A program made the position numbers and the translations under genes. Positions 11,865 through 42,383 of a stretch of DNA of 64,000 nt are shown here, one piece after another. Source of the stretch: an uncultured Ruminococcus sp. Its GTDB lineage: Bacteria > Bacillota > Clostridia > Oscillospirales > Ruminococcaceae. Position 1 is the stretch's first letter, and every line of letters starts with the position of its first letter. Under the pieces are notes generated by a model that had not been told where the DNA came from, made no database searches, and was given only the letters and a program-made list of their open reading frames with translations. The stretch lies in NCBI GenBank assembly GCA_902786975.1, contig CADAES010000006.1, positions 93,096 to 157,095 of the forward strand, read 5' to 3'.

Positions 11865-11870
11865 ATAACA

Positions 11871-26666: not shown

Positions 26667-26683
26667 TAACCGTACCCCCCTCA

Positions 26684-27331
26684 TCAGTCAAGCCATTCAA
26701 CATCGGTGACATACATTACCTCGCAGGCGCCGTCACCGGTATCGGTCCTTGTGGTGCTGGAATGCCACCAGTACGTTTCGCCGTTTGACTTTTCAGCGTC
26801 AACATCGACAAGGTAGCCTTTCAGCCTTATGTGGTCGCCGCGCCGTATCTTTTTGACCTTATCCTTAATGGTCGAGCTGGACGGGAGCAGGTGTGTATTT
26901 GCTGAATGCTCGTTGACATACGATGTCCCGCCGACAGGCGCCAGCACCGAAACGTCGTCTACGTGCCACGAGTACCAGCGTCCCGACTGCGACCAGTTGA
27001 AATCTATCTTCTTGTTGTATTGTGCGACTTTGCCCCAGGCAAGTGCGGCATCGAGCGGAGACATCTTGTCAGCAAAGCTCGAACCGTCATAGGCTTTTGT
27101 ATGTACGACAAGCGCCTCTATCTCGTAGGTGTATTTGTAGGTTATCGTAACGTTGTAGCCGTCAACGGTCTTGGTAGTGTTGCCCGTCGTTTCTTCCTGT
27201 ACAGGCTCGCCGATCCCGGGGATCGCCCTGCGCACGCCGTTTTTCTGAACAAAGTACCACACAACCAGCCCGACAAGCAAAACAGCTATCGTAATGGCTA
27301 TCACACGTTTGAGAACTTTCTTCTTGGACAT
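26684..27331 (-). CDS. Membrane-anchored extracellular protein, unknown
   Basis: A 215-residue protein; the start at 27331 has GGAGGTGAG upstream, excluding the longer frame to 27430. A basic N-terminus and one transmembrane helix (about 9-28) are followed by an extracytoplasmic domain of about 170 residues. That domain is rich in aromatic and polar residues, with WYSWHVDDVSVLAPVG, RRGDHIRLKGYLVDVD and a C-terminal WWHSSTTRTDTGDGACEVMYV. The last part has conserved-looking Trp/His/Ser/Thr spacing that could form an active or binding site. I do not recognise a named family. It is first in a two-gene unit with the Thr-rich lipoprotein. Confidence 0.72.
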   Translation of the reverse strand: MSKKKVLKRVIAITIAVLLVGLVVWYFVQKNGVRRAIPGIGEPVQEETTGNTTKTVDGYNVTITYKYTYEIEALVVHTKAYDGSSFADKMSPLDAALAWGKVAQYNKKIDFNWSQSGRWYSWHVDDVSVLAPVGGTSYVNEHSANTHLLPSSSTIKDKVKKIRRGDHIRLKGYLVDVDAEKSNGETYWWHSSTTRTDTGDGACEVMYVTDVEWLD

Positions 27332-27540
27332 AGCCTCACCTCCGCAAATACTTTCTGATGATATTATACTACTTATCCGCACAAAAATCAATACAGAATA
27401 AAAAAGCGCCCTCTGCGCCTGCAAACGCACTCTGAGCTATCCGCTATTCGCTCTGATCTGTAAAATGAGTCCTTGATATGTCATAAACGAGGCAACAACA
27501 GAGGCCTCTGAACAAAGTCCGACCCCGAGCATCACAAAAA

Positions 27541-27573
27541 AATATCCCCCGCTCAATACTGAGCAAGGGATAT
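27541..27573 (-). terminator. Terminator just beyond the tRNA 3'-end repeat
   Basis: Stem ATATCCC-TTGCTCA / TGAGC-GGGGATAT with loop GTAT, followed on the minus strand by T7. It could be the original terminator of a tRNA-Gln unit, now separated from it by the island. Confidence 0.75.
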
Positions 27574-27593
27574 GCGTGGTGCACGCTGTGCAC

Positions 27594-27617
27594 TGGCTGG
27601 GGTGGAAGGATTCAAAC
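27594..27617 (-). repeat. Partial tRNA 3' end (probable attachment-site copy)
   Basis: The minus strand reads as the T-arm, acceptor and CCA of a tRNA. It is identical to the 3' end of tRNA-Gln(CUG) at 42221-42244 except one base (TTTGAA for TTCGAA). No other part of a tRNA is present. It abuts the truncated integrase frame, as an att site would. Confidence 0.8.
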
Positions 27618-27907
27618 ATCTTTAACACCGATTTGAACAGACAATAAGCATTTTTAACATATTTCGGACTTGCCCTTTTGCTTTCAATGCTTATTGCACG
27701 CTGAATGTCAATTGGTCTAAGGTCGCACAGCCTTGTTTTCTGCAAGCACCTAAACGCATTCTCCGCAAGAATAATGTAGGTGCGTATCGTTGTCGGCTGG
27801 ATAATGCCAACCCGAGTTTCAATGTAATACCTCGTTGCATCTTTTAATGCTGTGGTATCATCGAGCATGGCATTCTTGCCGTCGAGAAAATCCTGAGCCA
27901 GTTTCAA
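27615..27907 (-). pseudogene. Tyrosine integrase N-terminal remnant
   Basis: About 95 codons of the SAM-like core-binding domain of a clostridial tyrosine recombinase. Recognisable segments are DATRYYIETRVGIIQPTTIRTY, LCDLRPIDIQRAIS, and SPKYVKNAYCLFKSVLKMF. The catalytic domain (R-H-R-Y) is missing. The frame runs straight into the tRNA 3'-end repeat and then meaningless sequence to a stop at 27437. No ATG or ribosome site is well placed. It marks the left end of a former integrative element. Confidence 0.8.
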
Positions 27908-28097
27908 TGCTTTTTATGCTACAATATACTCAATTTTTCCGGGCGAAAAAAATGCTAACCTCACAGCGATTTTTTCATCTTAATAATAGAGGGGAAAAAC
28001 GTGAGACCTGAAGGTGTGATGTAAATGGAACTCAGCGAACTGATACGGCAGGTGCTTGTGCAGATGTTCAAAAACAGCCTGAAAAGCAAAGATGCTC

Positions 28098-28127
28098 TTG
28101 AAAAAGTAGATAATAATGTTTTATACT
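28098..28127 (+). promoter_or_regulatory. Promoter of the sigma-TM/ABC operon
   Basis: TTGAAA (28098-28103), 18-bp spacer, TATACT (28122-28127). The leader before the ribosome site is very short. Confidence 0.55.
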
Positions 28128-28151
28128 ATATAGGAAAGGTGTGTGATAACA

Positions 28152-29873
28152 ATGAACAAGGCAAAGCTTGCCGAAACGGTGACGGCGGCACAGTCGGGAG
28201 ATAAGGACGCAGTAGAAAAGCTGTACCGGCAGTACCGTGAACGGATATGGTTCTTTGTGTGCAAAAACGTATCCTCAAAGCAGGCTGCCGAGGACATCGT
28301 TTCGGACACCTTTCTGACTGCTGTCGAAAAGCTCCCGGAGCTTCGCTGTGCCGATGCGTTCGGCTCGTGGCTTTATTCTATCGCCTACACCAAATGTATG
28401 GCTCACCTCAATTCCGAATCGGAGATAGCTCGGTTCGATACCGATGACGAACTTGAAGCGAGCATTGAAAACAGCCGGCTCAGCGAACCCGTACAGCTTC
28501 CGGGCGACTATATCGAGAACGAACAGACAAAGCGGCTGCTGCGTGAGGCGATAGACAGCCTCAAGCCCCAGACACGCTCTCTGATAATAATGTACTATTT
28601 TGAGGAAATGAGCGTTGCCGAGGTCGCACAGGTGCTCGGTATCAAAAACAATGCCGCAAAGCAAAGGCTGTTTGCCGCACGCAAAAAGCTCGCATCAAAG
28701 CTGAAAAAGCTGTGCAGCAACGGGAGCAGCCTGTGTGTCGTTCCGCTGGGTGCAGTACTGAACGCATCGCTTGACAGCACTGCCGCATCGGCAAAGGCAT
28801 CGGGTGCGGCGGTCAAAGCAGGACTTACCGCAAAGCTTGCAGCTGCCGGCATAGCAGCGGCAGTCGCTGTCGGCATACCTCTGGCACTTGTCAACAGTGA
28901 CAGCAAGGGCGATTACCGTCCCGATAACAGCATAGTTTCACAGGACATAGATCTTGAAAAGGAAGCCGAAAAACTGCTGAAGGAGATCAGCGGAAAAAGC
29001 TTTTCCTATCGCTTTGAGACCTGTCCCGCTATGGAGCTGGTGACCGACAGCAGCTCTGTGAGCAGTGTACTTGTCCAGACAAAGCGAAACTCTGTCGAGC
29101 AGGGACAGATGTATGACTACGGGCTTTCGGAGTTTTTTCTGAAATACAAGTATCTGTGGAGCGTATCGCAAAAGGACAGCAGCGTTGTGCAGGGTGTGGT
29201 TTGTATGACTCAATGGTACACCGATCCCGAAAGGGAGATCAGGCTATATTGTTCCGCCGCTCAGAAAGGCGAGAACTCTGCATACAAGCTCTACCTGCCG
29301 GTATCAAACTCTGACCGCTTCATCTGCATCGAGCTGACCGACCCCGATAAGGGCAGATATCTGCTTGACGACATGGGTTCACACCGTGTTAAAGGCAGCG
29401 ACCATGTGAGCGAACTGTTTGAAACCCTTGATGACCGATCGCTTGAGGTATCATACGAAGGCAGTGACGGAAAAGTGAGCTTTGAAGCCTACCGTCTCGG
29501 CGAAAACAAGTTCGGCATAACGCTGAGACCCGATGTGAATATCCTTCAGGACACCGACGGTATGTTCTGCACTGTCGAGGTACTGCGAAGGGAAACAGGC
29601 GAAAGTGCTGCCTGTCCGGTCAAGACAGACGCAAAACAGTTCACAGCAGGCAGCGGTGAAGGCTTTATTATTGAATACACCAACGATCCCAAGGCTGACT
29701 TTGAAAGGAATATAGAGATATCTGATGTGCCCGACGACTGCGACAGTATAACGGTGAGCGTCAGCTGCAAACGCAGCAGTGATCCGAACGGCAGCACGGC
29801 TGACCACACCGTCAGATTTACCGCAGACATCTCGGGAGCAAGGAAAACGAAAGGACAAAAGCAAGATATATGA
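28152..29873 (+). CDS. ECF-type sigma factor fused to a membrane anchor and extracytoplasmic domain
   Basis: A 573-residue protein from ATG 28152; a GTG at 28143 is an alternative start. Residues 10-85 are sigma-70 region 2 (AVEKLYRQYRERIWFFVC, DTFLTAVEKL, WLYSIAYTKC). Residues 125-190 are region 4 (SLIIMYYFEEMSVAEVAQVLGI, KQRLFAARKKL). An Ala-rich linker leads to one transmembrane helix (about 231-247). About 320 residues outside the membrane follow, with no motif I recognise. A sigma factor tethered this way would need proteolytic release or would act at the membrane. The stop overlaps the next start (ATGA), so it is coupled to an FtsX-type ABC exporter. Confidence 0.85.
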   Translation: MNKAKLAETVTAAQSGDKDAVEKLYRQYRERIWFFVCKNVSSKQAAEDIVSDTFLTAVEKLPELRCADAFGSWLYSIAYTKCMAHLNSESEIARFDTDDELEASIENSRLSEPVQLPGDYIENEQTKRLLREAIDSLKPQTRSLIIMYYFEEMSVAEVAQVLGIKNNAAKQRLFAARKKLASKLKKLCSNGSSLCVVPLGAVLNASLDSTAASAKASGAAVKAGLTAKLAAAGIAAAVAVGIPLALVNSDSKGDYRPDNSIVSQDIDLEKEAEKLLKEISGKSFSYRFETCPAMELVTDSSSVSSVLVQTKRNSVEQGQMYDYGLSEFFLKYKYLWSVSQKDSSVVQGVVCMTQWYTDPEREIRLYCSAAQKGENSAYKLYLPVSNSDRFICIELTDPDKGRYLLDDMGSHRVKGSDHVSELFETLDDRSLEVSYEGSDGKVSFEAYRLGENKFGITLRPDVNILQDTDGMFCTVEVLRRETGESAACPVKTDAKQFTAGSGEGFIIEYTNDPKADFERNIEISDVPDDCDSITVSVSCKRSSDPNGSTADHTVRFTADISGARKTKGQKQDI

Positions 29874-32845
29874 AAAAGACGATGATGCTCGCAAAGATAT
29901 CGCTGAAATACTGGGCGAACCATAAAATGCGTCTGTTCACGCTGATGCTCACCCTTGTTTTCGGCGTCAGTGCTCTTTGCTGCACTGCACTTCTGATAAG
30001 GTCGGAAAAGCATGCTGTGCTTGAAAATGCTCTTATGATAAACGGCAACTATGACTATGTGATATACTGCATATCCGAAAAGACCGCCGAAAGGATAGCA
30101 CAGGACGAGTGCGTTGATGATCTGGGTATGCAGTACGATCTGGGGTATGTGAAAAGCGAATCGGGAGCAAAGGAATATGCCGCAGCATACCTTGACGAAA
30201 AGTCAGAGGACTTTGACCATATGCCCTGCACAAGAGGGCACTATCCTCGCAAAGAGGACGAGGTCGCTATGGATCTGACCTCTGCCGCAGCACTGGGCGT
30301 AAAGCCGTATCCGGGCGAGAAGGTAACGCTGTCGCTGTATTCGGCTGACGATAAGCATCTTGCCGACAAGCAATACACTCTCAGCGGTATTTTTGAAAAG
30401 CAGAACCCTTCTGTTTACGGCGGCTGGCAAAGATACGATCCTAAGTTTGAAGAAAGCGGCTATAATATGCAGGGCGTGTATTTTCACGCAAGTCAGAATG
30501 ACATCTTCAAAAGCGATACGGTCGCCGCATTTATTCTCTCCGAGGTCGAGCCGGGCGACTGGAGCATGTATGAACGGATAAAGAAATACGCCGAGCCGAC
30601 AATGCTGTGGGGAGATTCCCACAACAGGAAGGAAGCTTATACCTATGTGCTGGGAGTGTTCAATCAGATCTGGTCCGACGAGTATAGCTCAGAGACATAT
30701 TCAAACATCAATTCAATAATGGACAAGGGCGGCACCGTCAAGGATTTTTACTCGGGCGTGCTGATGCCCGTGTTCACAGTCATCATCTTTATCATCGTCA
30801 TTCTTTCGGTCGTCGGCATAACCCGCAATATAATCAAGGACAAACAGGAGAACTTTGCGGTGCTGCGAAGTCTCGGGCTTGAACGGCGTCAGCTGAAGCT
30901 TTACGTATTCTGCGACTTCACCGTGACCGCACTTGTCTGCATTGCGATCGGGCTTTTGCTCGGAAGTGCTGTACATATGATAATGATAAACTCGCTCAAC
31001 AGCATCTGCGACCTCAGACTGCAATACGGCTTCACGGGAGGAAGGTATGTTGACGATGTGACGCTCGACCCGTTCATTCTGTCGTCGGTCACTATGATAA
31101 TCTGTGTTGAGTTCGCTGTGTTTTTGTCACTGTTTGGCATCAGAGGTAAAACACCCATTCAGATGTTCGAGGACAAATACACCAAAAAACGCCGTCACCG
31201 CAGACAAAAGCCCGCCGGGAAATACCGCGGCTGGAAGCTGCTGCTCGTACGCAGGATAAAGCTCCGCAGTTTCCGCATTGCCGTTATCAGCATTCTGGTG
31301 ATGTCCTGTGCTTTGTTCGGATACACCTATTTCAATGCACTGGCTGACAAGAACAACGCTGAGCTTCGCTGGGAAAAAGAGCAAAGCGGGCTGACCTGCT
31401 GGGATTATACCGCACAGAAGTCAAAGCATTACGAAATGTATAAATTCAACATTGAGAACCGTCACGACCTCGGAGTCAGTGTTGACAGCTACGGCGAAAT
31501 GAAGGGCAAGCCGTTCGTTGAAGATGCTTTCGCAAAGATGACCAACCGTTCGACAAGGCTGGTCTACGGCAGTAACGAACTTGACGAAAACGCTCTTAGT
31601 GTGCTCGAAGATTATGATACAAGGCTGTTCGGCGACAAGGATATGAGCAAGGCTGATGCTGTGGACAAGGCGAACAAAGACGGCGAAGATGCTATGGTGA
31701 AGGCTGTCGGATACCGAACCGACGATCATATTTACGCCTGCCCGTCTGTCGGCTTGTTCGATGACGAGCTCGAAAAACTGAAAAGCAAGGTCGTTGACGG
31801 ACGCATAGATGTCAATAAACTCAACGACGGCAGCGAGGTACTGCTGGTGCTGACACAACTCAGCAAAGACAAACTTCTGCCGCTTTTCAAGGTCGGTGAC
31901 AAGCTTCCGCTGTCGGACATCTTACTAAGCAACAGCGAGGAACAGCTCGATTTCAGCAGAAACGACATCACGACCTTTGGCGAGCCTGTCTATAACAAGG
32001 ACATAATCTTTTCGGACGGAACAAAAACGCCGTATATGGAATTCGCTTTCGGCAGGCGGAAGGATATCTCCGTAAGGATAGGTGCGATAGCCGTGCTGAG
32101 TGAGGAAGATGCAGATAAGTATATGTCAATGGCGGGAGAGCAGGACTGCGGTATGAATGTTTTCTGCTCGGTGAACGCTTTCGGAGCGTGGGGGCTGAAG
32201 GACAGAAATCTCACAGCGATATCAATGAAGCTCAAAGACGGCACCGACATATCCGAAGCGGACGAATACTGGTACTCGGTCATATCCGGCGGCAAGGGAA
32301 TGACAAGCCGTTCGACCTCGCAGATAACCGCAGGTATGAACAGAGGCACAAAAAAGATTATGAGCGTCTACTACTCGATGATAATCATCCTTACGCTGAC
32401 TGCTGCGGCTGCGATAGCGATAACGCTGTATACCGATATCCGCATCAGAAGCAAACGGTTCGCAAGCCTGCGTGCCTGCGGTATGTCCACAGGACAGATA
32501 CTGTTTATGATACTCAGGCAGAATATCGTATACCCGATCATCGGTGCCGGATTTTCCTTACTGCCGGTGAAAGCATGCAGCAAACTGTTCGGATATATTA
32601 TCCAAAAGGTCGAGAGCGGTCAGTGGACCTCAGCTGCTCCTCAGTGGGCGGAGCAAGGGAAGAAAAGCGTGCCGTGGATAGCCGATGTCCCATACATCTA
32701 TGACCTGTTCAGCTATAATGTCCCACGGGCAGTGGTGATCCTTTTTGTGATATATCTTGCCCTGATACTTCTGGTCACGCTGCCGCAGATACGCTTTATC
32801 CGCAGGCAGCCTATAGTTGAAGAGATCGAAAAGTCAAGCTTTTAA
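29870..32845 (+). CDS. FtsX-like ABC transporter permease
   Basis: A 991-residue permease with two FtsX/MacB-type domains. It has one N-terminal helix (about 20-42), a large extracytoplasmic loop (45-295), three helices (about 298-420), a middle helix (about 462-485), a second large loop (about 490-830), and three C-terminal helices (from about 835). This layout is that of exporters and mechanotransmission systems (MacB, LolCE, BceB relatives) rather than importers. It overlaps the sigma-TM gene by 4 bp, and its ATPase follows 11 bp downstream. Likely roles are antimicrobial-peptide resistance or export of a peptide or lipoprotein. The substrate is unknown. Confidence 0.9.
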   Translation: MKKTMMLAKISLKYWANHKMRLFTLMLTLVFGVSALCCTALLIRSEKHAVLENALMINGNYDYVIYCISEKTAERIAQDECVDDLGMQYDLGYVKSESGAKEYAAAYLDEKSEDFDHMPCTRGHYPRKEDEVAMDLTSAAALGVKPYPGEKVTLSLYSADDKHLADKQYTLSGIFEKQNPSVYGGWQRYDPKFEESGYNMQGVYFHASQNDIFKSDTVAAFILSEVEPGDWSMYERIKKYAEPTMLWGDSHNRKEAYTYVLGVFNQIWSDEYSSETYSNINSIMDKGGTVKDFYSGVLMPVFTVIIFIIVILSVVGITRNIIKDKQENFAVLRSLGLERRQLKLYVFCDFTVTALVCIAIGLLLGSAVHMIMINSLNSICDLRLQYGFTGGRYVDDVTLDPFILSSVTMIICVEFAVFLSLFGIRGKTPIQMFEDKYTKKRRHRRQKPAGKYRGWKLLLVRRIKLRSFRIAVISILVMSCALFGYTYFNALADKNNAELRWEKEQSGLTCWDYTAQKSKHYEMYKFNIENRHDLGVSVDSYGEMKGKPFVEDAFAKMTNRSTRLVYGSNELDENALSVLEDYDTRLFGDKDMSKADAVDKANKDGEDAMVKAVGYRTDDHIYACPSVGLFDDELEKLKSKVVDGRIDVNKLNDGSEVLLVLTQLSKDKLLPLFKVGDKLPLSDILLSNSEEQLDFSRNDITTFGEPVYNKDIIFSDGTKTPYMEFAFGRRKDISVRIGAIAVLSEEDADKYMSMAGEQDCGMNVFCSVNAFGAWGLKDRNLTAISMKLKDGTDISEADEYWYSVISGGKGMTSRSTSQITAGMNRGTKKIMSVYYSMIIILTLTAAAAIAITLYTDIRIRSKRFASLRACGMSTGQILFMILRQNIVYPIIGAGFSLLPVKACSKLFGYIIQKVESGQWTSAAPQWAEQGKKSVPWIADVPYIYDLFSYNVPRAVVILFVIYLALILLVTLPQIRFIRRQPIVEEIEKSSF

Positions 32846-32856
32846 GGAGATAAACA

Positions 32857-33522
32857 ATGGACATACAGATAAAAACATCTGCACTGACAAAGCAGTATAA
32901 AATGGGAACACAGACGGTCGATGCACTCAAAGGTGTTGATCTTGAGATCGAAAAAGGCAGCTTCACAGCTGTCTGCGGAACAAGCGGCAGCGGAAAGTCA
33001 ACTCTTTTGCATATGCTCGGCTGCCTTGACAGACCGAGCTCGGGCGTTGTATTCATAGGCGATATCAAGGTCACCGAGACAAAGGACAAAAAGCTATCTA
33101 AGATACGGCGGGAGAATATCGGATTTGTGTTCCAGAGATTCTGCCTTATCCCCGAGCTGTCCGTCACCGAAAACATCATCGTTCCAGTGCTTTTGTCGGG
33201 CAAACGTCCAGATACTGCGTATATTGACGAGCTGTGTGAGATACTCGGCCTCTCGGACAGAAAATCTCATCTGCCCTCGGAGCTTTCGGGCGGTCAGCAG
33301 CAGAGATGTGCAATAGCGAGAGCGCTTGCCAACGATCCGCAGATAGTGCTGTGCGATGAGCCGACAGGAAACCTCGATAAGAAAACGGGCGAGGAGGTCA
33401 TCTCGCTTCTGCACGAGGTGAACAGAAAGTATCAAAAAACTGTTGTGATAGTCACCCACGATGAGAACATAGCAGGCGGTGCCGACCGAATCGTTCGTAT
33501 CGAAGATGGTACAATAATATAG
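32857..33522 (+). CDS. ABC transporter ATPase (MacB/LolD type)
   Basis: A 221-residue nucleotide-binding subunit. It has Walker A GTSGSGKST (45-53), the signature LSGGQQQRCAIARAL, Walker B IVLCDEPTGNLD and the H-loop VIVTHD. The sequence is typical of the LolD/MacB/BceA group that pairs with FtsX-like permeases, here the gene 11 bp upstream. The start at 32857 has AAGGAG upstream. It is the last gene of the sigma-TM/exporter operon and is closed by a terminator. Confidence 0.95.
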   Translation: MDIQIKTSALTKQYKMGTQTVDALKGVDLEIEKGSFTAVCGTSGSGKSTLLHMLGCLDRPSSGVVFIGDIKVTETKDKKLSKIRRENIGFVFQRFCLIPELSVTENIIVPVLLSGKRPDTAYIDELCEILGLSDRKSHLPSELSGGQQQRCAIARALANDPQIVLCDEPTGNLDKKTGEEVISLLHEVNRKYQKTVVIVTHDENIAGGADRIVRIEDGTII

Positions 33523-33590
33523 TCGTTGACTGATTGTGAAAAACAAAAATGATTCTGCTCAGAGTTCAGTTGATTTCAAATAATGAGAAC

Positions 33591-33624
33591 AGCATCGCCG
33601 CAGGTTTCTGTGGCGATGCTTTTA
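33591..33624. terminator. Terminator between convergent ABC operons
   Basis: Perfect 9-bp stem AGCATCGCC / GGCGATGCT with a 12-nt loop, then TTTTAA. It lies between the plus-strand ATPase and the minus-strand permease and may serve both. Confidence 0.75.
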
Positions 33625-33627
33625 ACA

Positions 33628-34653
33628 TTATTTCTGCTTCCTTCTCCACAGCACTACTGCTGTACAACAACCGACAACAGATTTCACACAAGACACAATT
33701 GCGAATCTTACAGCTGAAAAGCCTCCGTACATACTTTTGAGCACCGAAGCACAGATCAGCACATTCCCACTATCATTAAGAACAAAAAGCGGCGTCACAC
33801 AAACAAGGAACGACAGCACGAAAGAGAACGTAACATTTTTGCAGGCGGTACTTATCGTGCAGGCGGCGAGAGCGTAAAACACGAACGCAAGTGCTTTTAG
33901 CAATGCATCGGTGACAAAGTACCCAATCAGCGACTTTTCACCGAGAGAATCTGTCAGCAATAGGTTGCCTGCCGCTTTGTCCGAAAAGCCAAGGCTATTC
34001 CGATAAGCAAACACACCGAGCCGAGCAGCACTCATCAGCAGTGACAGCACAAAGACAGCAAGCGTTACTGCGATAAGCTTTGCAAATGCAGTCTGCGTCC
34101 GACCTCGTTTTGAGGTGAGTATCTGTGCAAAGCTCCCGCTTGAAAATTCGCTGTCAAACGCAGGCACGGCAATACACAAAAGTGCGATCAGCATTATGTA
34201 GTCATAGCTGTTATCTGCAAATAGGTCTGACCAGTCGGTATCGCAGAAAATCTGCTTGTCAAAGCCGCTGCACTCGTTGAGCTTCGCATATTTTTCACAC
34301 AGGTACATCACCGTTTTTTCCTCGGCTTTGGCGATGCCGTGACGTGCAGTAAAATCAGAATACTCCTCTAAATCTATCTCGCCGCTTTGGTACTTTTGCT
34401 GCATGGTGTCGTAGTCGGCGATAAGACTTTGTATCTCTGCAAGTCGGGCATTAAGAGACTCTATCTTTTCGCTTGTCAGCTCGCCTGAAAGCTGCGTTGT
34501 GTATTGCCTGTACACCTCGTAGGAATAGGGGTGATCGTGAGCGATTGGGACAAAGCAAAGCACTGTTCTTGCCGAAAGTGCGATAATAAAAACAAGCAGC
34601 AAATGCTGCAATTTCAGCAGCTTTTTCAGCTCGGCGAAAAGAACTTTACTCAT
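33628..34653 (-). CDS. ABC-2 type permease
   Basis: A 341-residue integral membrane protein. The start is ATG 34653, with GGGAG upstream; the GTG at 34662 is not needed. The N-terminus (FAELKKLLKLQHLLLVFIIAL) is the amphipathic elbow plus first helix of ABC-2 permeases. A long extracytoplasmic coiled region (about 45-160) is followed by five more helices, with a DSEFSSGSFAQILTSKRGR cytoplasmic segment. It overlaps the upstream ATPase gene by 8 bp. With that ATPase, a second permease and a lipoprotein it forms one exporter operon of the kind used for bacteriocin self-protection. Substrate unknown. Confidence 0.85.
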   Translation of the reverse strand: MSKVLFAELKKLLKLQHLLLVFIIALSARTVLCFVPIAHDHPYSYEVYRQYTTQLSGELTSEKIESLNARLAEIQSLIADYDTMQQKYQSGEIDLEEYSDFTARHGIAKAEEKTVMYLCEKYAKLNECSGFDKQIFCDTDWSDLFADNSYDYIMLIALLCIAVPAFDSEFSSGSFAQILTSKRGRTQTAFAKLIAVTLAVFVLSLLMSAARLGVFAYRNSLGFSDKAAGNLLLTDSLGEKSLIGYFVTDALLKALAFVFYALAACTISTACKNVTFSFVLSFLVCVTPLFVLNDSGNVLICASVLKSMYGGFSAVRFAIVSCVKSVVGCCTAVVLWRRKQK

Positions 34654-35512
34654 CGCTGTCACTCCCGAAATGGCTCATATAAACGTCTTCAAGCGTGACA
34701 GCCGCAGGCTGTGCATTATCGCTGGGCTTGTGATCTGAAACGGTGTGTACAAGGATACCGCTGTCACGTTTGGTGATGTTCGCACAGCTGTTTTGCAGGA
34801 TATATTCCTCCGCCTCACGCTCGGTCATCGGAATATCCCAGACACAGCCCTCAAGCTTTGCGCAAAGGCTTTCCGAGCTGCCGCTGTCGATAAGTCTGCC
34901 GTCTTTGAGCAGCAGGCAATCGTCGGAAATGCTCTCGATGTCGGACACTATGTGCGTTGCAAGGATAACTATCTTGCCAAAACCTATCTGCGAAATGACA
35001 TTGCGAAAACGCATACGCTCTTTAGGGTCAAGCCCTGCGGTCGGCTCGTCAAGAATCAGAATTTGAGGATCGTTCAAAAGCGCAAGAGCTATTCCCAGCC
35101 TGCGCTTCATTCCGCCGCTGTAACCCTTTATCTTTCGGTCTTTTTCGCCTTGCAGATTAACAAGCTCCAGCAGCTGCGCTATCCGCTTTTTGCTGCCCTT
35201 GACATCACGCAGCACGGCATAGTAATCAAGCGTTTGCTGTGCCGTGAATGACGGGTAAAACCCCAGCTCCTGCGGCATATATCCGAGCATCTCACGAAAA
35301 GATGCACCCATTGAAAAAACAGATTTACTGTCAAGCAAAATATCTCCCGAGGACTGCCGCAAAAGCCCTGCAAGAATGTTCATCAGCGTGGATTTGCCTG
35401 CGCCGTTTGGTCCAAGCAAAGCGTGAACGCCGTTTTTCAGCGTTATATCAAAATCAATTAGTGCCTGTTTTTTGCCGTAGGCTTTGCACAGCTTTTCAAA
35501 CTTTAATTCCAT
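34646..35512 (-). CDS. ABC-2 transporter ATPase
   Basis: A 288-residue ATPase; start ATG 35512 overlaps the upstream permease stop (TAATG) and has AGGAGGT upstream. It has Walker A GPNGAGKST, the signature YSGGMKRRLGIALAL, Walker B ILILDEPTAGLDP and switch His in ATHIVSD. The C-terminal about 60 residues form the extra domain seen in CcmA/NatA/BcrA-type exporters. It pairs with the flanking ABC-2 permeases at 33628 and 35512. Confidence 0.94.
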   Translation of the reverse strand: MELKFEKLCKAYGKKQALIDFDITLKNGVHALLGPNGAGKSTLMNILAGLLRQSSGDILLDSKSVFSMGASFREMLGYMPQELGFYPSFTAQQTLDYYAVLRDVKGSKKRIAQLLELVNLQGEKDRKIKGYSGGMKRRLGIALALLNDPQILILDEPTAGLDPKERMRFRNVISQIGFGKIVILATHIVSDIESISDDCLLLKDGRLIDSGSSESLCAKLEGCVWDIPMTEREAEEYILQNSCANITKRDSGILVHTVSDHKPSDNAQPAAVTLEDVYMSHFGSDSDE

Positions 35513-36729
35513 TATGCCGACCTCCTCGTTCTGCCGCTGATCTTGTATCCGAAAATGACGCACAACAAACTTACGGCAAGCGAAATGAATATGCTCGCCG
35601 AAAGTCTGCTGACGGGGTGACCGAACAGCGAAAAACAGTCAAACTTTTTGATGTATTCCTTGAAATTCAAAAGGCTCTGCGGCAGGAAAATCCGCAGTCT
35701 GTCATACGCCGCAAGTACTGCTGTACTCGCCTTTTCGGAGTTGTCAAGCTTAATGAAAAGCACCATGTTCGCAAGCAGTCCGCCCGCACTTATCGGCAGC
35801 AGAATGATGTTTGACACGAGCGGTCGTTTTACAAGTGCGGTGACAAAAGTGCACAGCGAAATTATCGTGACATACGCAAGCACTTTGAGCAGGAACTTGA
35901 ACAGGTAAAACTGCGCAATGCTCATCGCGTACGGACAGTATTCGTACATTTGTATTTGCTGGATAGGCAGCGAGAGGTTTTTCAGCCCGAACACGCAAGC
36001 GCCCATTACAAGCTCAAATATCGCCTGCACTGTCAGCACTCCCACCGCAACGGATACGACCGCTATATATTTTTTGAAAAACAGGCTTTGCACCGTCTTT
36101 TTGCTCGTGTTCACCGTGCGGTATGCTCCCGTTGAATACTCGCACGAAAACAGCCGCACCGTCATCAGCACGCACAGGGCGATCATCACATATTCCCACA
36201 TTGAATAGTTGAAAATGCTGTATCTGATGTCGGGCGAAATGCCTGTGCTTTCAAGCTTCAGGTCAACACGTCGGTTGTAAAGCTCTATCGCCTTTTCATT
36301 GGCGGCAATAAGGTATGTATCGGGATCTGCCTTCTGTTTCTCGGTGTTGTTCTGATAGAGCATACCCTTTACAAGCTCTCGCCTGTCCTGCTCAAAGCGT
36401 GTCTGCACATAGCTCATAAGGTCAATGGTCTTGCTTATCGCATAAAGATCGCCGACTGCATATTCGCTGTACCTTCCACTGTAACTCTGAGCGTGTTCGC
36501 CAAGTCCGTTTTTAAATATTTCGCCTTGCATATCAGTCAGATCATTGATAGTCAGACCGTTTTGCACAGCATCGGCAAGTGCGGCTTCATAAGCCTTATT
36601 CGTCTCACGGTTATTTGCTGCGTCGCCCCATACCTCACGCAGTGGCAGAAATGCCATATAGCCAAAGGTCAGTATCAGCACAAGCCACATCAGCTTTGAT
36701 GAGAAAAGCTTTTTGAATTCATATTTCAT
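35512..36729 (-). CDS. ABC-2 type permease
   Basis: A 405-residue membrane protein with the ABC-2 layout. The N-terminal helix is in YEFKKLFSSKLMWLVLILTFGYM, followed by an extracytoplasmic segment of about 150 residues. Five or six helices come next, the second cytoplasmic loop bearing LFSCEYSTGAYRTVNTSKKTVQSLFFKK. That ExSxGxxR-like element is common in these permeases. It lies 8 bp after the lipoprotein and overlaps the ATPase start. Probable exporter subunit; substrate unknown. Confidence 0.87.
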   Translation of the reverse strand: MKYEFKKLFSSKLMWLVLILTFGYMAFLPLREVWGDAANNRETNKAYEAALADAVQNGLTINDLTDMQGEIFKNGLGEHAQSYSGRYSEYAVGDLYAISKTIDLMSYVQTRFEQDRRELVKGMLYQNNTEKQKADPDTYLIAANEKAIELYNRRVDLKLESTGISPDIRYSIFNYSMWEYVMIALCVLMTVRLFSCEYSTGAYRTVNTSKKTVQSLFFKKYIAVVSVAVGVLTVQAIFELVMGACVFGLKNLSLPIQQIQMYEYCPYAMSIAQFYLFKFLLKVLAYVTIISLCTFVTALVKRPLVSNIILLPISAGGLLANMVLFIKLDNSEKASTAVLAAYDRLRIFLPQSLLNFKEYIKKFDCFSLFGHPVSRLSASIFISLAVSLLCVIFGYKISGRTRRSA

Positions 36730-36737
36730 AAGCCACC

Positions 36738-37964
36738 TCAGTAGGAAATTATACTTCCGTTCTGACCTTCGGGCTGATAATATATGCCGAGACTTATCGC
36801 ATCATAATCGGCAGTGTCCTTTTTGATGCGGAACAAGGCATTATAGCATTTTTCGCCCGTAACGTTAGAACAATCGGGCACATATACATACTGCGAGCTT
36901 GGACAGGAAACGAAGGTAAGATACATCGGATCCTTAGCGGTGTACTTTTCGCCGTTTTCGTAGGTCAGCTCAAGGTTTATCTTTTTGATCTCTCCCGACG
37001 CCTTATCAAAAATGTATGCTCCGTCCTCCTTGGTGCAGTAGATGCTCTTATCGGTGACGAAAAAATCAACGCCTACATTCTCAATGAGCTGTTTTTCGCT
37101 CTGTCCGTCAAGGTCACGCCTGTATAATGTCCATTTACGCTCGCCAAGATACTTGTTATAATACACCCCGTCAGAGGTCGCCTGCAAGCGCACCGCCTTA
37201 TCATCGAGCTTTATGAGCTTGTGCGTTTTCATATCGTAATGCCACAGCTCGTAATTCTCGTTGGTCATATAAAAATGCTCACCGCTGACATCTGCGTACC
37301 ACATCGGAGAATCGCCGATGAGCACAGGCTCGCTTGTCTGCTTCATAGTCTTTGCGTCAACGGTATAAAACCAGTTCTGCCCCATAATGTACAGCACACC
37401 GTCTCTGAACATATAGCCGAAAGCACCCTTGTGATCCGGTTCGAGCTTTGCGTCAAGGTCGGAGAAATATGTGTTTTCAAACACAGCTCTGTCCTCGCCG
37501 CCAGATCTATAAAACAGCTTTTTGCAGTCACCTTGAGTGTACAGCGTATAGTAACAGCCGTCCTTTGTCATCACGGGCGAGTTCATCGGCTGAAATTCAA
37601 GGCAGCCCTTTGAGGTGTTCTCGTCATGGGCACAGCCGGTAATATCACAAAAAGAGCTGATGTGCCCTGTGGCAAGGTCTATCTTTTTCTTTTCATCCGT
37701 CTGCCATATCATAAATTCACTGCCGTTGAAATTATATCCGCTGTCAAGCAGTCCACGTCTGCGGTCATTTATCTCAACAGTATCGCTGACCTCACGCTTC
37801 GCTTCCTTTTCAATCTTTTCCTGTGTTTCGCTGACATCGACGTATCCGCCCTGTGAGCTGTCAGGTGAAGAAATATCCTTTTGTGAGCTGCTGCCTGAGG
37901 AACACCCTGTCATCAGAATTATTGCCGAAAGTACAGCACAAAAAAATCTTGCTTTGATTTTCAT
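36738..37964 (-). CDS. Lipoprotein with beta-propeller-like repeats
   Basis: A 408-residue lipoprotein; lipobox MTGC at residues 18-21 and start 37964 set by GGGGG. After a Ser-rich linker the mature part shows repeated strands of the form FMIWQTDEKKKIDL, DGVLYIMGQNWFY, GEHFYMTNENYELWHYD and SDGVYYNKYLGERKWTLYRRDLDG. These resemble DUF5050-like propeller blades. It heads the ABC-2 operon and could bind or sense the exporter substrate outside the cell. It is transcribed divergently from an ECF sigma gene through a mirror-image promoter. Confidence 0.82.
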   Translation of the reverse strand: MKIKARFFCAVLSAIILMTGCSSGSSSQKDISSPDSSQGGYVDVSETQEKIEKEAKREVSDTVEINDRRRGLLDSGYNFNGSEFMIWQTDEKKKIDLATGHISSFCDITGCAHDENTSKGCLEFQPMNSPVMTKDGCYYTLYTQGDCKKLFYRSGGEDRAVFENTYFSDLDAKLEPDHKGAFGYMFRDGVLYIMGQNWFYTVDAKTMKQTSEPVLIGDSPMWYADVSGEHFYMTNENYELWHYDMKTHKLIKLDDKAVRLQATSDGVYYNKYLGERKWTLYRRDLDGQSEKQLIENVGVDFFVTDKSIYCTKEDGAYIFDKASGEIKKINLELTYENGEKYTAKDPMYLTFVSCPSSQYVYVPDCSNVTGEKCYNALFRIKKDTADYDAISLGIYYQPEGQNGSIISY

Positions 37965-37983
37965 ATGTAAGACCCCCTTTATT

Positions 37984-38095
37984 TATACTGACGCAGCAAG
38001 GCGGCAAAGCACTACACATTTTTCCGCTTGATTTTTATTTGCACAAAATCTATAATGATGTGTAGTGTGAACGATATTTTTTACGTCAGTATAAG
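37984..38095. promoter_or_regulatory. Divergent mirror-image ECF promoters plus a housekeeping promoter
   Basis: Two inverted copies of TGTGTAGTG, 17 bp, CGTCAGTATA face outward. Rightward: -35 TGTAGT 38061-38066, -10 CGTC 38084-38087. Leftward: TGTAGT as the complement of 38011-38016, CGTC as the complement of 37990-37993. CGTC is a classic ECF -10 core. Between them, TTGATT (38028-38033), 17 bp and TATAAT (38051-38056) give a sigma-A promoter toward the sigma gene. Confidence 0.75.
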
Positions 38096-38111
38096 TGAGG
38101 AGGTGTGACAG

Positions 38112-38669
38112 GTGGACGACGAAAGCATTATCGAGCTGTTTTTTGAGCGTGACGAAAAGGCTCTGGACGAAGTGGCGGGCAAGTACAATGCACTTTGTTC
38201 AAAAATAGCAATGAACATTCTTTGTGACGCAGGCGAAAGCGAAGAAGCTGTGAATGACACCTGGCTCAAAGCGTGGAAAACCATTCCTCCGACAAGACCC
38301 AAAAGCCTTGGGGCGTATCTTTCGGTCATAGTGAGAAACATCTCGCTTGACAGGTTCAGAAAGAAAAAAGCTGCCAAGCGCATTGATGACACACTTGTCA
38401 GCACACTCGATGAAGTCGCACAGATGCTGCCCGCCGAAATGAATATTGAGCGCCGCACCGAGCAGCGTCAGCTTATTGAACGGATAAATTTCTTCCTTAA
38501 AAAGCTCCCCAAGGGTCAGCGTATTATTTTCGTAAGGCGGTATTTTTACCTCGACAGCATAAGAGAGATAGCACAGCGTTACGGTTTTACCGAGAGCAAT
38601 GTCACCGTGACGCTCACAAGGCTGCGGAAAAAGCTTGCAGCATTTCTTGAAAAGGAGGGTATGCTATGA
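38112..38669 (+). CDS. ECF RNA polymerase sigma factor
   Basis: A 185-residue sigma-70 family protein with regions 2 (about 10-75, including NDTWLKAWKTIPPTRPKSLGAYLSVI) and 4 (about 120-180, including FVRRYFYLDSIREIAQRYGFTESNV). GTG start at 38112 with GAGGAGG seven bases upstream. It overlaps the following anti-sigma gene by ATGA. The intergenic region carries two identical outward promoters that it probably recognises. I infer autoregulation plus control of the divergent lipoprotein-ABC operon. Confidence 0.93.
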   Translation: MDDESIIELFFERDEKALDEVAGKYNALCSKIAMNILCDAGESEEAVNDTWLKAWKTIPPTRPKSLGAYLSVIVRNISLDRFRKKKAAKRIDDTLVSTLDEVAQMLPAEMNIERRTEQRQLIERINFFLKKLPKGQRIIFVRRYFYLDSIREIAQRYGFTESNVTVTLTRLRKKLAAFLEKEGML

Positions 38670-39658
38670 ATGACAGCAGAGAGTTGAACGCACTTTCGCT
38701 TTTGTCGGGGATAGACGAAGACATGATAGACGAGGCAGAAAACACAGAAAAAATCACGCTCAAGCAAAAAAGAAAGAAATTTCCCTTGATGCTTGCAGCG
38801 GTGATAACTGTGATGGTTGTGTCTGCTGTAAGCGTGACTGCGGCTGTGCAGGGGTACATCTCACACAGAAAAAATGTTGAGCACGAATACACGAATCCAG
38901 CCTTTGTGGACGAACTTGAAAAGCGTCAGGGACAGCCGATAGTTGCACAGAATAAGCATCTGCGGCTGACGGTGGACTCGATCATCTCCGACAAGATGTA
39001 TATTCAGGCAACTACTACTCTTGAAGGTCTTGACGAACAAGGCAAGGAGTACATCAGCAAGCACCTTTGTCTTACCAAGGAGGATTTTGAAAGGCTCAAA
39101 GGCAGTGTGCATTCTTATCTGCCGCATATGGTCACGGATATAGACGGTGCAGATCAGACCGTCAGATTCAACAATTGGGCGGATCTGCAATACGGTCAGC
39201 GTGGCGGACACACAGAAGGCTCGTTCACCTTCGGAGTTGCAAAGGCAAAGCTTATGGGCGCACAGACTGTTCATGTACGCTGTCTTGACTGGAGCAGCAT
39301 AGGTATCGGGCAGGGACTTGACGACCTGAAAGAGGGGATATTTGAGGGGATAGAGTTTGACCTTCCCGTGCAGACTAATTTCGACACTCTCACCCTTGCC
39401 GCAGATACACGATACTTCTATGTTTCAGAGGTTGGGTTTTACAATGATCTTGGCAGGTGGCATGACAATGATAAAGTCGTGATGCACTACTCCGATGGCA
39501 GCGAGGAAACCATAGACCTTGATCATTCAGATACATTCGGTGAAAAGCTGTATGAGCTTGAAAAGATACAAAGCGTGGAATATATGGGCACAAAATATAT
39601 AGCAAAGAAGATCGAAAAAGCTGAAAGCCCAACAGCAACACAACACCCGGAAGCATGA
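38666..39658 (+). CDS. Anti-sigma factor (DUF4179-type)
   Basis: A 330-residue single-pass protein. A cytoplasmic N-terminus of about 40 residues (MNDSRELNALSLLSGIDEDMIDEAE) would bind the sigma factor. One transmembrane helix (about 41-62) follows, then an extracytoplasmic domain of about 265 residues with the beta-rich DUF4179-like pattern (LRLTVDSIISDKMYIQATTTLEG). Translational overlap with the ECF gene is the standard sign of a cognate anti-sigma. It presumably senses an envelope signal or peptide and releases the sigma factor. Confidence 0.88.
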   Translation: MNDSRELNALSLLSGIDEDMIDEAENTEKITLKQKRKKFPLMLAAVITVMVVSAVSVTAAVQGYISHRKNVEHEYTNPAFVDELEKRQGQPIVAQNKHLRLTVDSIISDKMYIQATTTLEGLDEQGKEYISKHLCLTKEDFERLKGSVHSYLPHMVTDIDGADQTVRFNNWADLQYGQRGGHTEGSFTFGVAKAKLMGAQTVHVRCLDWSSIGIGQGLDDLKEGIFEGIEFDLPVQTNFDTLTLAADTRYFYVSEVGFYNDLGRWHDNDKVVMHYSDGSEETIDLDHSDTFGEKLYELEKIQSVEYMGTKYIAKKIEKAESPTATQHPEA

Positions 39659-39837
39659 ATTCCGGCAATGTGAGAAAGCTCAGAAATAGAGCGCTTGAAA
39701 AACTGCGCACAGAGTATGCAAGGCTTGCAATGGGCTGCCACGATGAATACACGGGAAAGATACCGCACAATATCAAACGTCTTTGCAAGTATCTTGAAAA
39801 GCCAAAACCCACGAAGAAGCGAAAGAAAGCAGCGTAG
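39655..39837 (+). CDS. Small basic protein in the ECF operon
   Basis: A 60-residue frame starting with ATGA overlap at the anti-sigma stop, so it would be translated by coupling. The sequence GNVRKLRNRALEKLRTEYARLA resembles the last helix of sigma region 4, and the tail is Lys-rich (KPTKKRKKAA). It may be a degenerate sigma-factor C-terminus or a genuine small nucleic-acid-binding protein. It ends 5 bp before a terminator, which favours a real third gene. Confidence 0.5.
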   Translation: MNSGNVRKLRNRALEKLRTEYARLAMGCHDEYTGKIPHNIKRLCKYLEKPKPTKKRKKAA

Positions 39838-39843
39838 TATCCG

Positions 39844-39875
39844 ACCGTACAGAGTTATCTGTGCGGTCTTTTTTT
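39844..39875 (+). terminator. Terminator of the ECF operon
   Basis: 10-bp stem ACCGTACAG-type / CTGTGCGGT (one G:U) with loop AGTTAT, followed by T7. Confidence 0.85.
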
Positions 39876-39887
39876 GTCTTGCAAAAT

Positions 39888-40031
39888 GTAGAGATTTTGC
39901 GAACGGCACTTCGGAAGGTAACGAGCTATGCACGGCAGCACAGCGAGGAGTTCTACAAGGCAGCTATGCAAAACGGCGAACAAGAGGCAAAAAAGCAGAT
40001 AAAAGCCGCAGAAAAGCCATTTGCAAGCTGA
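39888..40031 (+). pseudogene. Probable large serine recombinase fragment
   Basis: Forty-seven in-frame codons with no start, immediately after the terminator. The segment RTALRKVTSYARQHSEEF resembles the coiled-coil region of clostridial serine recombinases with DUF4368-type C-termini. It ends in TGA at 40029. The rest of the gene is absent. Identification rests on a short stretch and is tentative. Confidence 0.4.
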
Positions 40032-40272
40032 AAAGCAAAACCCGAAAGGCGATCATACCTTCCGGGTAACACTGCATATTAAATTCTTCGTTAAGGTTGT
40101 GCCGCCTATGGAAAGCTGCTGTTTTGTTATATGCGCCTGCCGCAATTGTTCTTCTTTGACTGCATTTGAGTCTGCGTCGGAGCATCAACCTTCTGTTCTT
40201 CGACTGTGCTCTGAACGGACATTCAATATATCCGCATAACGCATGCTGTTCTGCAAGGTCTTTGCGTAAAGG
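40032..40272. other. Non-coding debris between recombinase scrap and HipA-like gene
   Basis: Apart from a hairpin (ACCCGAAAGG / CCTTCCGGGT near 40037-40067), I see no gene, RNA or repeat. Short open frames on both strands lack start signals and family resemblance. Confidence 0.5.
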
Positions 40273-41439
40273 CTATTCTATCTTTTGAGCACGGTTAAGT
40301 GATAACCGTTCAATGTGCTCTATTCTGCTCTCAACAAAGGAAGCTATTTGACCTACACGCTCCGCAGGAAACAAACCGAGATAAACGGCAGGAGAAAGTG
40401 TTTCCTTGATAAACTCGGATATACCGTTCAGTTTGGCTGCATCAAACCAATCAAACGAGCTTACAAGCTGCAACTGTTCTTCGGGCTTTTCTTTAAATGG
40501 CTTCGATTTATAATTACGCCCTCTGCTATCAATTTGTCTGTTGTATGCTAAACTTGTTCCGCTATCATAAATCGGTGCAAAACCTATAAATTCAAGTGTT
40601 ATGGGGTTTCTGACAAGCCCGAAATTATTATAATGCCTATCTTCGTTTGCTAAGATATAGTCAACAGTCAATAATCTATCGAGGAACGGAACGGCATCTA
40701 TGCCTACGTTATTGCAGCACTTTAAGAAATGCTGATAATTGCTATCGTTGTTAGATTGCTTTTCAAAAAGCGTTAAGCGATATGCGGGTATCAACTCAGA
40801 TGTGTTTGTTATGAAATCCTCGCATACGCTGTATGGCAGTTCGTCTTGCCATACCAAAGAATAGTCAACGTGAGGAATATCAAGCAAGCTAAATATTTTT
40901 GCTGCTATGACCTCGTTAAACGGCTCTTGGTGATATGGGTCGCTGCCGCCTTTAATCAGCACTCGCTTTTCATTAGTTATTTTCCACCTCTTACGGAGCC
41001 AACCGTCCGATGTGTTGTCGGGAGATAAAAAGTCAATTGTTTCTGGTGCGATACCTCCAAAAAGAATGTTACCTATATCCTCGGAAAAATCGTTTTCAAA
41101 AAAATTAACGTCTTTCCAATGCAAAGTAGTGCCATACGGTTTCAACCAATAGTGGTCTGATAGGCTCAAACCAAGGCTCTTAAATATGATTTCTTTTGAG
41201 GACGCTACATTGAGCTTTTCGAGTGTATCAGACAAGCCAACACGGCTTGCAGGAATACTACGGCTTGTAAGCCAATCGTTTAAGTCTTTTTTTCCTACAA
41301 TGCCTTTTCTTACTGTTCCTAATGGAAGATGCTCAAAGTTCATTACCTCGTTGATGCCCGAGATGTTAAGGTATTCTTCATCGAAGGTTATTACAGCAAC
41401 CTCGATGTCGTGGTGCATAAGAGTGTATTTGTAGTCCAT
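40273..41439 (-). CDS. HipA-like Ser/Thr kinase, no HipB partner
   Basis: A 388-residue protein; ATG 41439 with AGGAGG upstream, so the longer frame to 41652 is rejected. The C-terminal half carries the HipA/CtkA-type kinase signature. VLIKGG contains the putative ATP-binding Lys163, ANEDRHYNNFG (264-274) the catalytic Asp267 loop, and YDSG (291-294) the metal-binding Asp292. The N-terminal part (about 1-130) is not the usual HipA N-subdomain. No HTH antitoxin gene is next to it. Its position between recombinase and replication-protein fragments suggests it is mobile-element cargo. Confidence 0.8.
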   Translation of the reverse strand: MDYKYTLMHHDIEVAVITFDEEYLNISGINEVMNFEHLPLGTVRKGIVGKKDLNDWLTSRSIPASRVGLSDTLEKLNVASSKEIIFKSLGLSLSDHYWLKPYGTTLHWKDVNFFENDFSEDIGNILFGGIAPETIDFLSPDNTSDGWLRKRWKITNEKRVLIKGGSDPYHQEPFNEVIAAKIFSLLDIPHVDYSLVWQDELPYSVCEDFITNTSELIPAYRLTLFEKQSNNDSNYQHFLKCCNNVGIDAVPFLDRLLTVDYILANEDRHYNNFGLVRNPITLEFIGFAPIYDSGTSLAYNRQIDSRGRNYKSKPFKEKPEEQLQLVSSFDWFDAAKLNGISEFIKETLSPAVYLGLFPAERVGQIASFVESRIEHIERLSLNRAQKIE

Positions 41440-41668
41440 AGTACGCCCTCCTTTCTCTCGTGTTCTATATTTCATAATCATAATATCATACCCCAAAATA
41501 AAAGTCAAGCAATCGCAATCTGATTTTGTCACGGTGACAAAATCACACTCTGTCGCACAGCATCTAATGCCCAAAAACGAGGACGCATCCAAGCTGATAA
41601 ATATATATTTCGAGGGCAGACGGAACACACCTATTGAGTATTGTACTTCCATTTGTTCTTTCGGAAGG

Positions 41669-42031
41669 CTATGCGTTAAATCGTCCCAAATCCCTTTTCA
41701 CCGCAAAATCTGCCCAGCGTGATTCGGCGTTTTCCTTGAACGTTTTACCGTTGGCTTCATTGAAAAGCGTGCTGATTAGGTATTTTTCGTAATTCTGAAT
41801 GCTGTCGGCATGACTGATCTGGTCAATAGCATTGGTGAGAACAGTGTTATCGACTTTGAGCATAGCCGATTTTACAGCTTCTCTCGGAAACTGCTGATTG
41901 CAAATCTTTTCATACGGCGTGGCAGAGAAAATCTGCCGAACTATCATATGATCGATCTCCTCGGCTTCATCTTCGTTGTCCAGCCAATCGGCAAAATCAT
42001 TGAAGTCAATATTTGACTTTCTTACATAGTC
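41669..42031 (-). pseudogene. C-terminal fragment of a mobile-element replication initiator
   Basis: A 120-codon frame after an in-frame stop, with no start codon at a usable place. QFPREAVKSAMLKVDNTVLTNAID followed by NYEKYLISTLFNEA matches the C-terminal pattern of RepA-N-type replication initiators on clostridial plasmids and conjugative elements. These usually read PAEVVKSRFLKL, then NIKKYLLATLFNAP. The N-terminal winged-helix half is gone. It lies 190 bp inside the right tRNA-Gln boundary of the island. Confidence 0.6.
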
Positions 42032-42169
42032 TTAATGCCCCAATTTGTAAACATAACTTCATCATATCATACCCTGTTTCATTCATCAGTTCCGTTCATC
42101 ACTTTGCGAAAAAGAACTGTAAAAGTGGAAAAATGACCCCAAAAATTGATGCCAAAATGGAATTTGGAC

Positions 42170-42213
42170 AAAAAAAGAAGCCGTAAATGCGTCATTTTGA
42201 CGTATCTACGACT
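42170..42213 (-). terminator. Terminator of the tRNA-Gln pair
   Basis: 16-bp stem with two G:U pairs and one mismatch around TTT, starting 8 nt after the tRNA CCA end, with a T-rich tail on the minus strand. Confidence 0.75.
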
Positions 42214-42220
42214 TTTTTGC

Positions 42221-42296
42221 TGGCTGGGGTGGAAGGATTCGAACCTTCGGAATGACGGAGTCAGAGTCCGTTGCCTTACCACTTGGCGACACCCCA
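42221..42296 (-). tRNA. tRNA-Gln (anticodon CUG)
   Basis: 76 nt including encoded CCA. Cloverleaf: acceptor TGGGGTG / CACCCCA, anticodon stem ACGGA / TCCGT with loop CTCTGAC (anticodon CUG after U33), T arm with GTTCGAATC. Its 3' end is repeated at 27594-27617, making it a likely integration target. Confidence 0.96.
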
Positions 42297-42307: not shown

Positions 42308-42383
42308 TGGCTGGGATAGATGGATTCGAACCATCGAAATGACGGAGTCAAAGTCCGCTGCCTTACCTCTTGGCTATATCCCA
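42308..42383 (-). tRNA. tRNA-Gln (anticodon UUG)
   Basis: 76 nt including CCA. Acceptor TGGGATA / TATCCCA, anticodon loop CTTTGAC (UUG), T loop TTCGAAT. It lies 11 bp upstream of tRNA-Gln(CUG), and together they read all Gln codons. Probably one transcript. Confidence 0.96.

Follow-up and report, generated by a model that had tools for sequence, protein, structure and literature searches.

A genomic island that very probably integrated into tRNA-Gln(CUG) of an uncultured Ruminococcus and was probably immobilised later by a deletion in attR and the integrase gene

Introduction

In the genome of an uncultured Ruminococcus sp. (assembly GCA_902786975.1, contig CADAES010000006.1, positions 93,096 to 157,095; this whole stretch of 64,000 nucleotides is called the window below), the 3′ end of a tRNA-Gln(CUG) gene recurs 14.6 kb away beside a fragment of a tyrosine integrase gene. 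The locus raises the question of whether the DNA between the two copies was brought in by an element that used this tRNA gene, and how the element then came to be stranded there. A sequence-only reading had proposed an old tRNA-integrated island that lost its mobility but kept its cargo. The reading reached here, namely that an island integrated into tRNA-Gln(CUG) and was later immobilised by deletion of part of attR and of the integrase gene, is considered very likely as a whole.

Results

Direct repeat and displaced tRNA tail

The repeat and the tRNA genes are located as follows.
42221..42296, minus strand: tRNA-Gln(CUG) (ctg anticodon), read as the target of integration, with the element-proximal att core at its 3′ end
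42308-42383: tRNA-Gln(ttg), adjoining tRNA-Gln(ctg)
42220..42244, minus strand: attL core (tRNA 3′ end)
27593..27617, minus strand: attR core, distal copy; 27593-27613 is the tRNA end, and the mismatched base 27614 is assigned to the integrase gene

The two copies (42220-42244 and 27593-27617) comprise 25 nt in the same orientation with one mismatch (27614) at a spacing of 14,627 nt. In a pattern search of the 2.37-Mb assembly (90% complete), the 23-nt core with up to two mismatches was found at exactly these two places, which confirms the proposed tRNA-Gln 3′-end repeat at both borders and leaves no sign of a sequence scattered over many unrelated loci. When three mismatches were allowed, the window gained a third match, in the neighbouring tRNA-Gln(ttg), and shuffled windows gave 0 core matches; the chance expectation for a 24-mer with at most one mismatch is about 1e-6 per genome at equal base frequencies.

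The sequences that now lie behind the two copies are the following.
27574..27593, minus strand: displaced tRNA trailer GTGCACAGCGTGCACCACGC
27542..27573, minus strand: terminator, interpreted as the one that belonged to the tRNA unit before the insertion moved it away, homologous to the attR flank of a related genome (G012)
42004..42219, minus strand: conserved tRNA-proximal end of the element, including the hairpin now behind the tRNA

The terminator noted just outside the left copy was found there as a 14-pair stem on the minus strand (27573-27542), and terminator and trailer together fold with a z score of -5.8. The 20 bases of GTGCACAGCGTGCACCACGC also stand directly after tRNA-Ser and, with one extra base, after tRNA-Trp in the same genome, and the tail of the distal copy in G012 is related to the window's trailer and terminator (86.7% over 60 bp). 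Trailer and terminator outside the left copy, the same trailer behind other tRNA genes, and the related tail in G012 together indicate that the tRNA unit's original tail ended up beyond the far end of the insertion. The new hairpin behind the tRNA folds well, yet it is absent from the terminator list of the pattern scan.

As a separate observation, a 95-bp stretch beginning with AATCAGAATTTGTGCACAGCGTGCACCACGC occurs at five places in the source genome (G000 contigs C5, C13, C26, C38 and C51; loci L131, L006, L134, L135 and L004), three copies being identical, one having 1 difference and one having 12. None of these five loci contains a tRNA gene, and no Rfam family matched the trailer-repeat loci at the gathering score; the GTGCACAGCGTGCACCACGC part of the stretch is also the trailer behind three tRNA ends.

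Empty and occupied sites in relatives

Among the 29 genomes of the genus that were searched, the core (at most one mismatch) was present in 15 and absent from 14. A distal copy accompanies it in three of the 15, namely the source genome, G012 and G010, the last with the tRNA itself not found (assembly 70% complete); the other 12 have a single copy, and one of these is masked upstream of the core.

Empty sites were located in two relatives. In G008 (L102), the tRNA pair extends to 4551, and from 4676 the sequence is homologous to an asparagine-synthase-like gene. In G009 (L103), where the tRNA ends at 4197, one extra gene of the phosphorylase family (L012:2625-3374) comes next, then homologues of window 26684-27430 and 25590-26684, and then the asparagine-synthase-like gene (the labels asparagine synthase, phosphorylase family, and two-component kinase and regulator are Pfam-based). 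The genes beyond both empty sites are those to the left of the island in the window, and on the other side of the tRNA a DUF4956 gene and two genes beyond it are common to G008, G009 and the window. Between the DUF4956 gene and the tRNA pair, G008 carries a further gene, of 676 aa, that is missing from the window, so the outer side of the site is variable too. The search for relatives with the two flanks joined, which had been suggested as a check, thus came out in favour of the island, directly in G008 and with one extra gene in G009, both of them other species rather than other strains of the source species; island genes were not seen as core genome at the same place in close relatives.

In G012 (L061), the site is occupied by a related 12-kb element between identical cores (6338-6360 and 18580-18602), with the same outside neighbours as in the window. 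This element encodes a 341-aa Phage_integrase protein (6449-7474) that ends 88 bp from the distal core and is 100% identical to the integrase of ONMZ01000037.1 (isolate RUG460), a type IIG restriction-modification protein of the MmeI family, a HipA-like protein (below the Pfam cutoff), and two replication-initiator-like proteins, the second weakly so. The window and G012 elements share their two ends only, with 303 bp of integrase sequence at 90.8% nucleotide identity, and a tRNA-side stretch at 87.1% over 510 aligned bp (including the tRNA pair), 216 bp being shared at the element's tRNA end; the mid-cargo differs except for the HipA-like gene. The proposal that the element used this particular tRNA-Gln is supported by the empty sites of G008 and G009 and the occupied site of G012, and at the level of sequence comparison these empty and occupied relatives show that integration took place.

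Integrase relic and deletion junction

27611..27913, minus strand: integrase relic that retains residues 36-136 of 341 and has lost its catalytic domain and N-terminus

The truncated tyrosine integrase noted beside the left copy is real. Of its 341 residues 101 remain, 92% identical to residues 36-136 of the 341-aa integrase, although Pfam alone barely detects them (E 0.078); with the 96-aa relic as query, only one other match was found in the source genome (29% identity). On the tRNA strand, the window reads ...GTTAAAGATGTTTGAATCCTTCC, the attR of G012 reads ...ACAAGATGTTCGAATCCTTCT, and the integrase gene of G012 reads ...GCTAAAGATGTTTGAGGTCGA. In the three-way alignment, the window follows the integrase gene up to TTTGA and attR from ATCC onward. 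Two similar 11-bp stretches, one in attR and one in the integrase gene, are separated by 713 bp as measured on G012, which serves as a proxy for the window element before the deletion, and the lost piece covers the catalytic domain as far as it was matched (173-318 of 341). The lost piece also holds the inner arm of attR, a 26-nt stretch 19 nt from the core; G012 and G010 have it in identical form, G020 has it with 3 of 26 positions changed despite another tRNA end there, and the window lacks it. Judged by its conservation, this arm would bind the integrase, and one deletion at the junction seen in the sequence would account for both losses, that of the inner arm and that of the integrase's catalytic half.

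The single mismatch of the repeat is best read as the integrase gene's own base at this junction rather than as drift. It is highly unlikely to be a plain point mutation accompanied by a separate loss of the integrase, for, although a single base mutates easily, the integrase homology runs on into the core and the integrase genes of G012 and G010 carry the same base as position 27614. In archaeal SSV-type elements, the integrase is split by its own attP, and since the reading frame of the relic runs into the core, such a split was considered here as well; it was rejected, as 88 bp (G012) and 63 bp (G010) separate the end of the integrase from the core, a stretch that the window has lost.

Cargo of the island

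The genes and gene scraps inside the island are as follows.
28143..29873, plus strand: module 1, ECF sigma factor with a long C-terminal extension
29870..32845, plus strand: module 1, FtsX-type permease
32857..33522, plus strand: module 1, ABC ATPase
33607..39665: module 2 block, 6.06 kb, 91.8% nucleotide identity to G009:C3 and 91.5% to G016:C72
33628..34662, minus strand: module 2, ABC-2-type permease (Pfam below cutoff)
34646..35563, minus strand: module 2, ABC ATPase
35512..36729, minus strand: module 2, putative permease by sequence, without a Pfam hit
36738..37964, minus strand: module 2, DUF5050 protein
38112..38669, plus strand: module 2, ECF sigma factor
38666..39658, plus strand: module 2, probable anti-sigma factor (DUF4179, below cutoff)
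39894..40066, plus strand: serine-recombinase scraps, 80% nucleotide identity to parts of a 667-aa recombinase at G000:C30
40273..41652, minus strand: HipA-like kinase gene, common to the G012 element (71-72% aa identity)
41669..41947, minus strand: replication-initiator scrap (DUF6017), 25.6 against a cutoff of 27 bits

Both sigma/ABC-exporter modules contain the sigma and ABC genes described for them (Pfam), and their domain content makes them most likely self-regulated exporters acting against peptides or envelope stress. Full-length relatives of the module 1 permease (53-58% aa identity) were found in G009, G012, G010 and G006 (two copies, one interrupted by a stop codon), whereas those of G016 are partial; none of the full-length relatives lies on a contig with the tRNA-Gln core or, in G010, with the att copy. 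Of 61 genomes, 3 gave a match to the DUF5050 protein of module 2, the source genome being one of them (G000, G009 and G016). The block as a whole is 91.8% identical in nucleotides in G009 and 91.5% in G016, and its single genes range over 88.8-94.1%. Six of seven flanking genes are at 71-85% nucleotide identity to G009, and the seventh (25590-26684) reaches 92% over 782 of 1095 bp, as high as module 2. At third codon positions, five of the six module 2 genes were compared with G009 and diverge by 0.11-0.23, against 0.35-0.51 for three core genes, which points to horizontal arrival.

The right end of module 2 in the window stops, as judged by eye, inside the loop of a terminator seen in G009 and G016. 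The idea that the 6.06-kb block is a unit with the same ends in three contexts was dropped: the flanks in G009 and G016 are alike, so the block ends mark only the window's own junctions. A homologue of the exporter neighbouring the block in G009 occurs in the source genome on contig C13 (83% nucleotide identity over 787 bp and 72% over 999 bp), and the source genome has no close copies of the block's DUF5050 and DUF4179 genes outside the island, from which capture from such an exporter cluster is suggested. The modules were most likely captured from exporter clusters elsewhere. That the element kept its cargo is in this respect uncertain: the modules are present, and they have relatives at other loci in other species and were possibly captured separately. 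A broader proposal, in which ECF-sigma/ABC-exporter modules are swappable cassettes in the genus and a complete 6.06-kb unit (sigma, anti-sigma and ABC operon), cut near or within its terminators, would pass from species to species between exporter clusters and tRNA islands with its own regulator on board, is speculative and rather unlikely. In G012, a remnant of the module 2 anti-sigma gene tail (L105, G012:C36, 6080-6211; 80% aa identity over 44 residues) lies beside module 1, next to which module 2 may once have been present.

The HipA-like reading frame is open, is 73.8% identical in nucleotides to its counterpart in G012, and matches the PADLOC models PDC-M03A, which by their name we take to be phage-defence candidates, the activity of the protein being putative. 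The kinase named earlier is a gene shared with the G012 element, and its HipA_C hit (25.0 bits) falls below the Pfam cutoff of 30.5. Neither Pfam nor the plasmid collection gave a match for the serine-recombinase scrap itself, which is nevertheless borne out by 80% nucleotide identity over 115 bp to the 667-aa Resolvase/Recombinase protein of the same genome. The replication-initiator scrap has a DUF6017 match that scores just below the cutoff, and it is not alike to the 166-aa replication-like protein of G012.

Age and mosaic structure

Compared with G012, 17 of 96 third codon positions differ in the integrase relic, against 247 of 511 in the asparagine-synthase-like gene; the counts are 98/225 for the response regulator, 116/224 for DUF4956, and 196/425 for the HipA-like gene, about as in the core genes. 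The description of the element as old is unsupported for the integrase end: these counts suggest that this end passed between species after the hosts had diverged, and the HipA end gives no such indication. With HipA diverged like core genes and the integrase relic not, the island is a mosaic rather than one clean arrival, and the word old does not fit every part of it.

Discussion

Model and alternatives

In the preferred model, an integrative element with its own tyrosine integrase recombined into the 3′ end of tRNA-Gln(CUG) at a core of about 24 bp. The insertion left a whole tRNA gene with a new hairpin and moved the trailer and terminator that had belonged to it to a distance of 14.6 kb; given the way such integrases act, the new tRNA end would have been supplied by the element. 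A later deletion between AAGATGTTCGA (attR) and AAGATGTTTGA (integrase gene) would have cost the element the inner attR arm together with the catalytic half of its integrase, and a second loss or replacement would have taken the integrase N-terminus along with what formerly lay in the middle. As cargo, the element carries an open HipA-like kinase gene and the ECF-sigma/ABC-exporter modules, the latter most likely captured, before or after integration. As the catalytic domain and the attR arm are missing, the element should hardly be able to excise by itself, and it probably cannot excise even with help in trans.

An alternative origin of most of the 14.6 kb is possible, though somewhat improbable, namely that the exporter modules were first chromosomal, a small element entered the tRNA gene, and a later rearrangement enclosed them, so that most of this DNA would not be mobile cargo. 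Like modules do occur at other loci (G009, G012, G006, G010 and G016) with no tRNA gene in the fetched stretches, and the parts common to the window and G012 elements are only their two ends; against this, G009, G008 and G012 lack these modules beside the tRNA, and the closeness of module 2 to G009 relative to the three core genes suggests horizontal arrival. This alternative differs mainly in the time at which the cargo arrived and thus overlaps with the preferred model. Partial duplicates of tRNA genes exist in genomes, and the left copy could be one of them, unrelated to integration, but this is extremely improbable for a copy that is an exact 3′ end beside an integrase relic, with the same layout and a whole integrase in G012 and with empty sites in two relatives, G008 and G009.

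Comparison with known classes

The element is an ordinary kind of genomic island, tRNA-integrated and with a tyrosine integrase. A direct repeat of the tRNA 3′ end at both borders, an integrase gene by the distal repeat (here a relic of 101/341 residues), a target kept whole, and empty sites in relatives (G008 and G009, other species) are shared with such islands, from which the present island differs in its 101-residue integrase, its mosaic cargo and its missing attR inner arm. Passages of PMC5704250 name tRNA 3′ ends among the usual targets of integrative and mobilizable elements (IMEs), and two relatives of the window integrase adjoin relaxase genes; the island, in contrast, has no working integrase, no complete recombinase gene, and no relaxase among its 17 ORFs (Pfam). 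A cis-mobilizable element (CIME), as described in passages of the same paper (PMC5704250), has lost its integration and transfer genes and keeps attL and attR. The island likewise lost its integrase and transfer genes and keeps both cores, but its attR inner arm is deleted, which makes mobility in trans doubtful. Phage structural or packaging genes were absent from the 17 island ORFs (Pfam). The closest counterpart, the G012 element, has the same tRNA and place, an integrase stretch of 91% nucleotide identity, a HipA-like gene and the 216-bp tRNA end, and differs in its full-length integrase, type IIG restriction-modification (MmeI) gene and other mid-cargo. Among open-licence papers, no title on this element was found.

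The locus offers a clear case of island fixation, in which recombination between short similar stretches would remove the enzyme together with part of its site, and the history of the island is legible almost base by base.

Integrase family and other observations

When genome contigs were searched with the G012 integrase, 85 related stretches came up, and 80 loci were retained from them. Motifs were scanned for in 35 of these loci, and in 5 (L138, L139, L144, L159 and L168) a tRNA-like end with CCA follows closely on the integrase, with a matching tRNA gene (tRNA-Ser) in the fetched stretch only in L168 (R. flavefaciens FD-1); a tRNA-like end was also recognised by eye in L141 and L211, and none in others. 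In three partly annotated neighbourhoods, relaxase genes (L138 and L141, each with an integrase relative at 56% identity) and a phage-type repressor (L168) were present. From these varied neighbourhoods, the window element appears to be a relic from an integrase family riding several kinds of element. Phage records contained only integrases of <60% identity (144 records).

These loci point to an integrase family of Ruminococcus-like bacteria that varies in the tRNA ends used by its members and has restriction-modification, HipA-like, relaxase or repressor genes in its neighbourhoods. The exchange of these genes among gut and rumen bacteria could thus be traced at defined sites. In L064 (G020:C63, 2979-4200), an integrase 67% identical over the relic is accompanied by nearly the same attP arm and a different tRNA-like 3′ end, which likely reflects a switch of target within the family. 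The L138 stretch that holds a relaxase gene and a member of the integrase family also contains an OLD-like nuclease gene (1679-3535). Elsewhere in the window, a lysine riboswitch (11870-12096, plus strand) and a T-box leader (56193-56444, plus strand) were detected above the gathering score.
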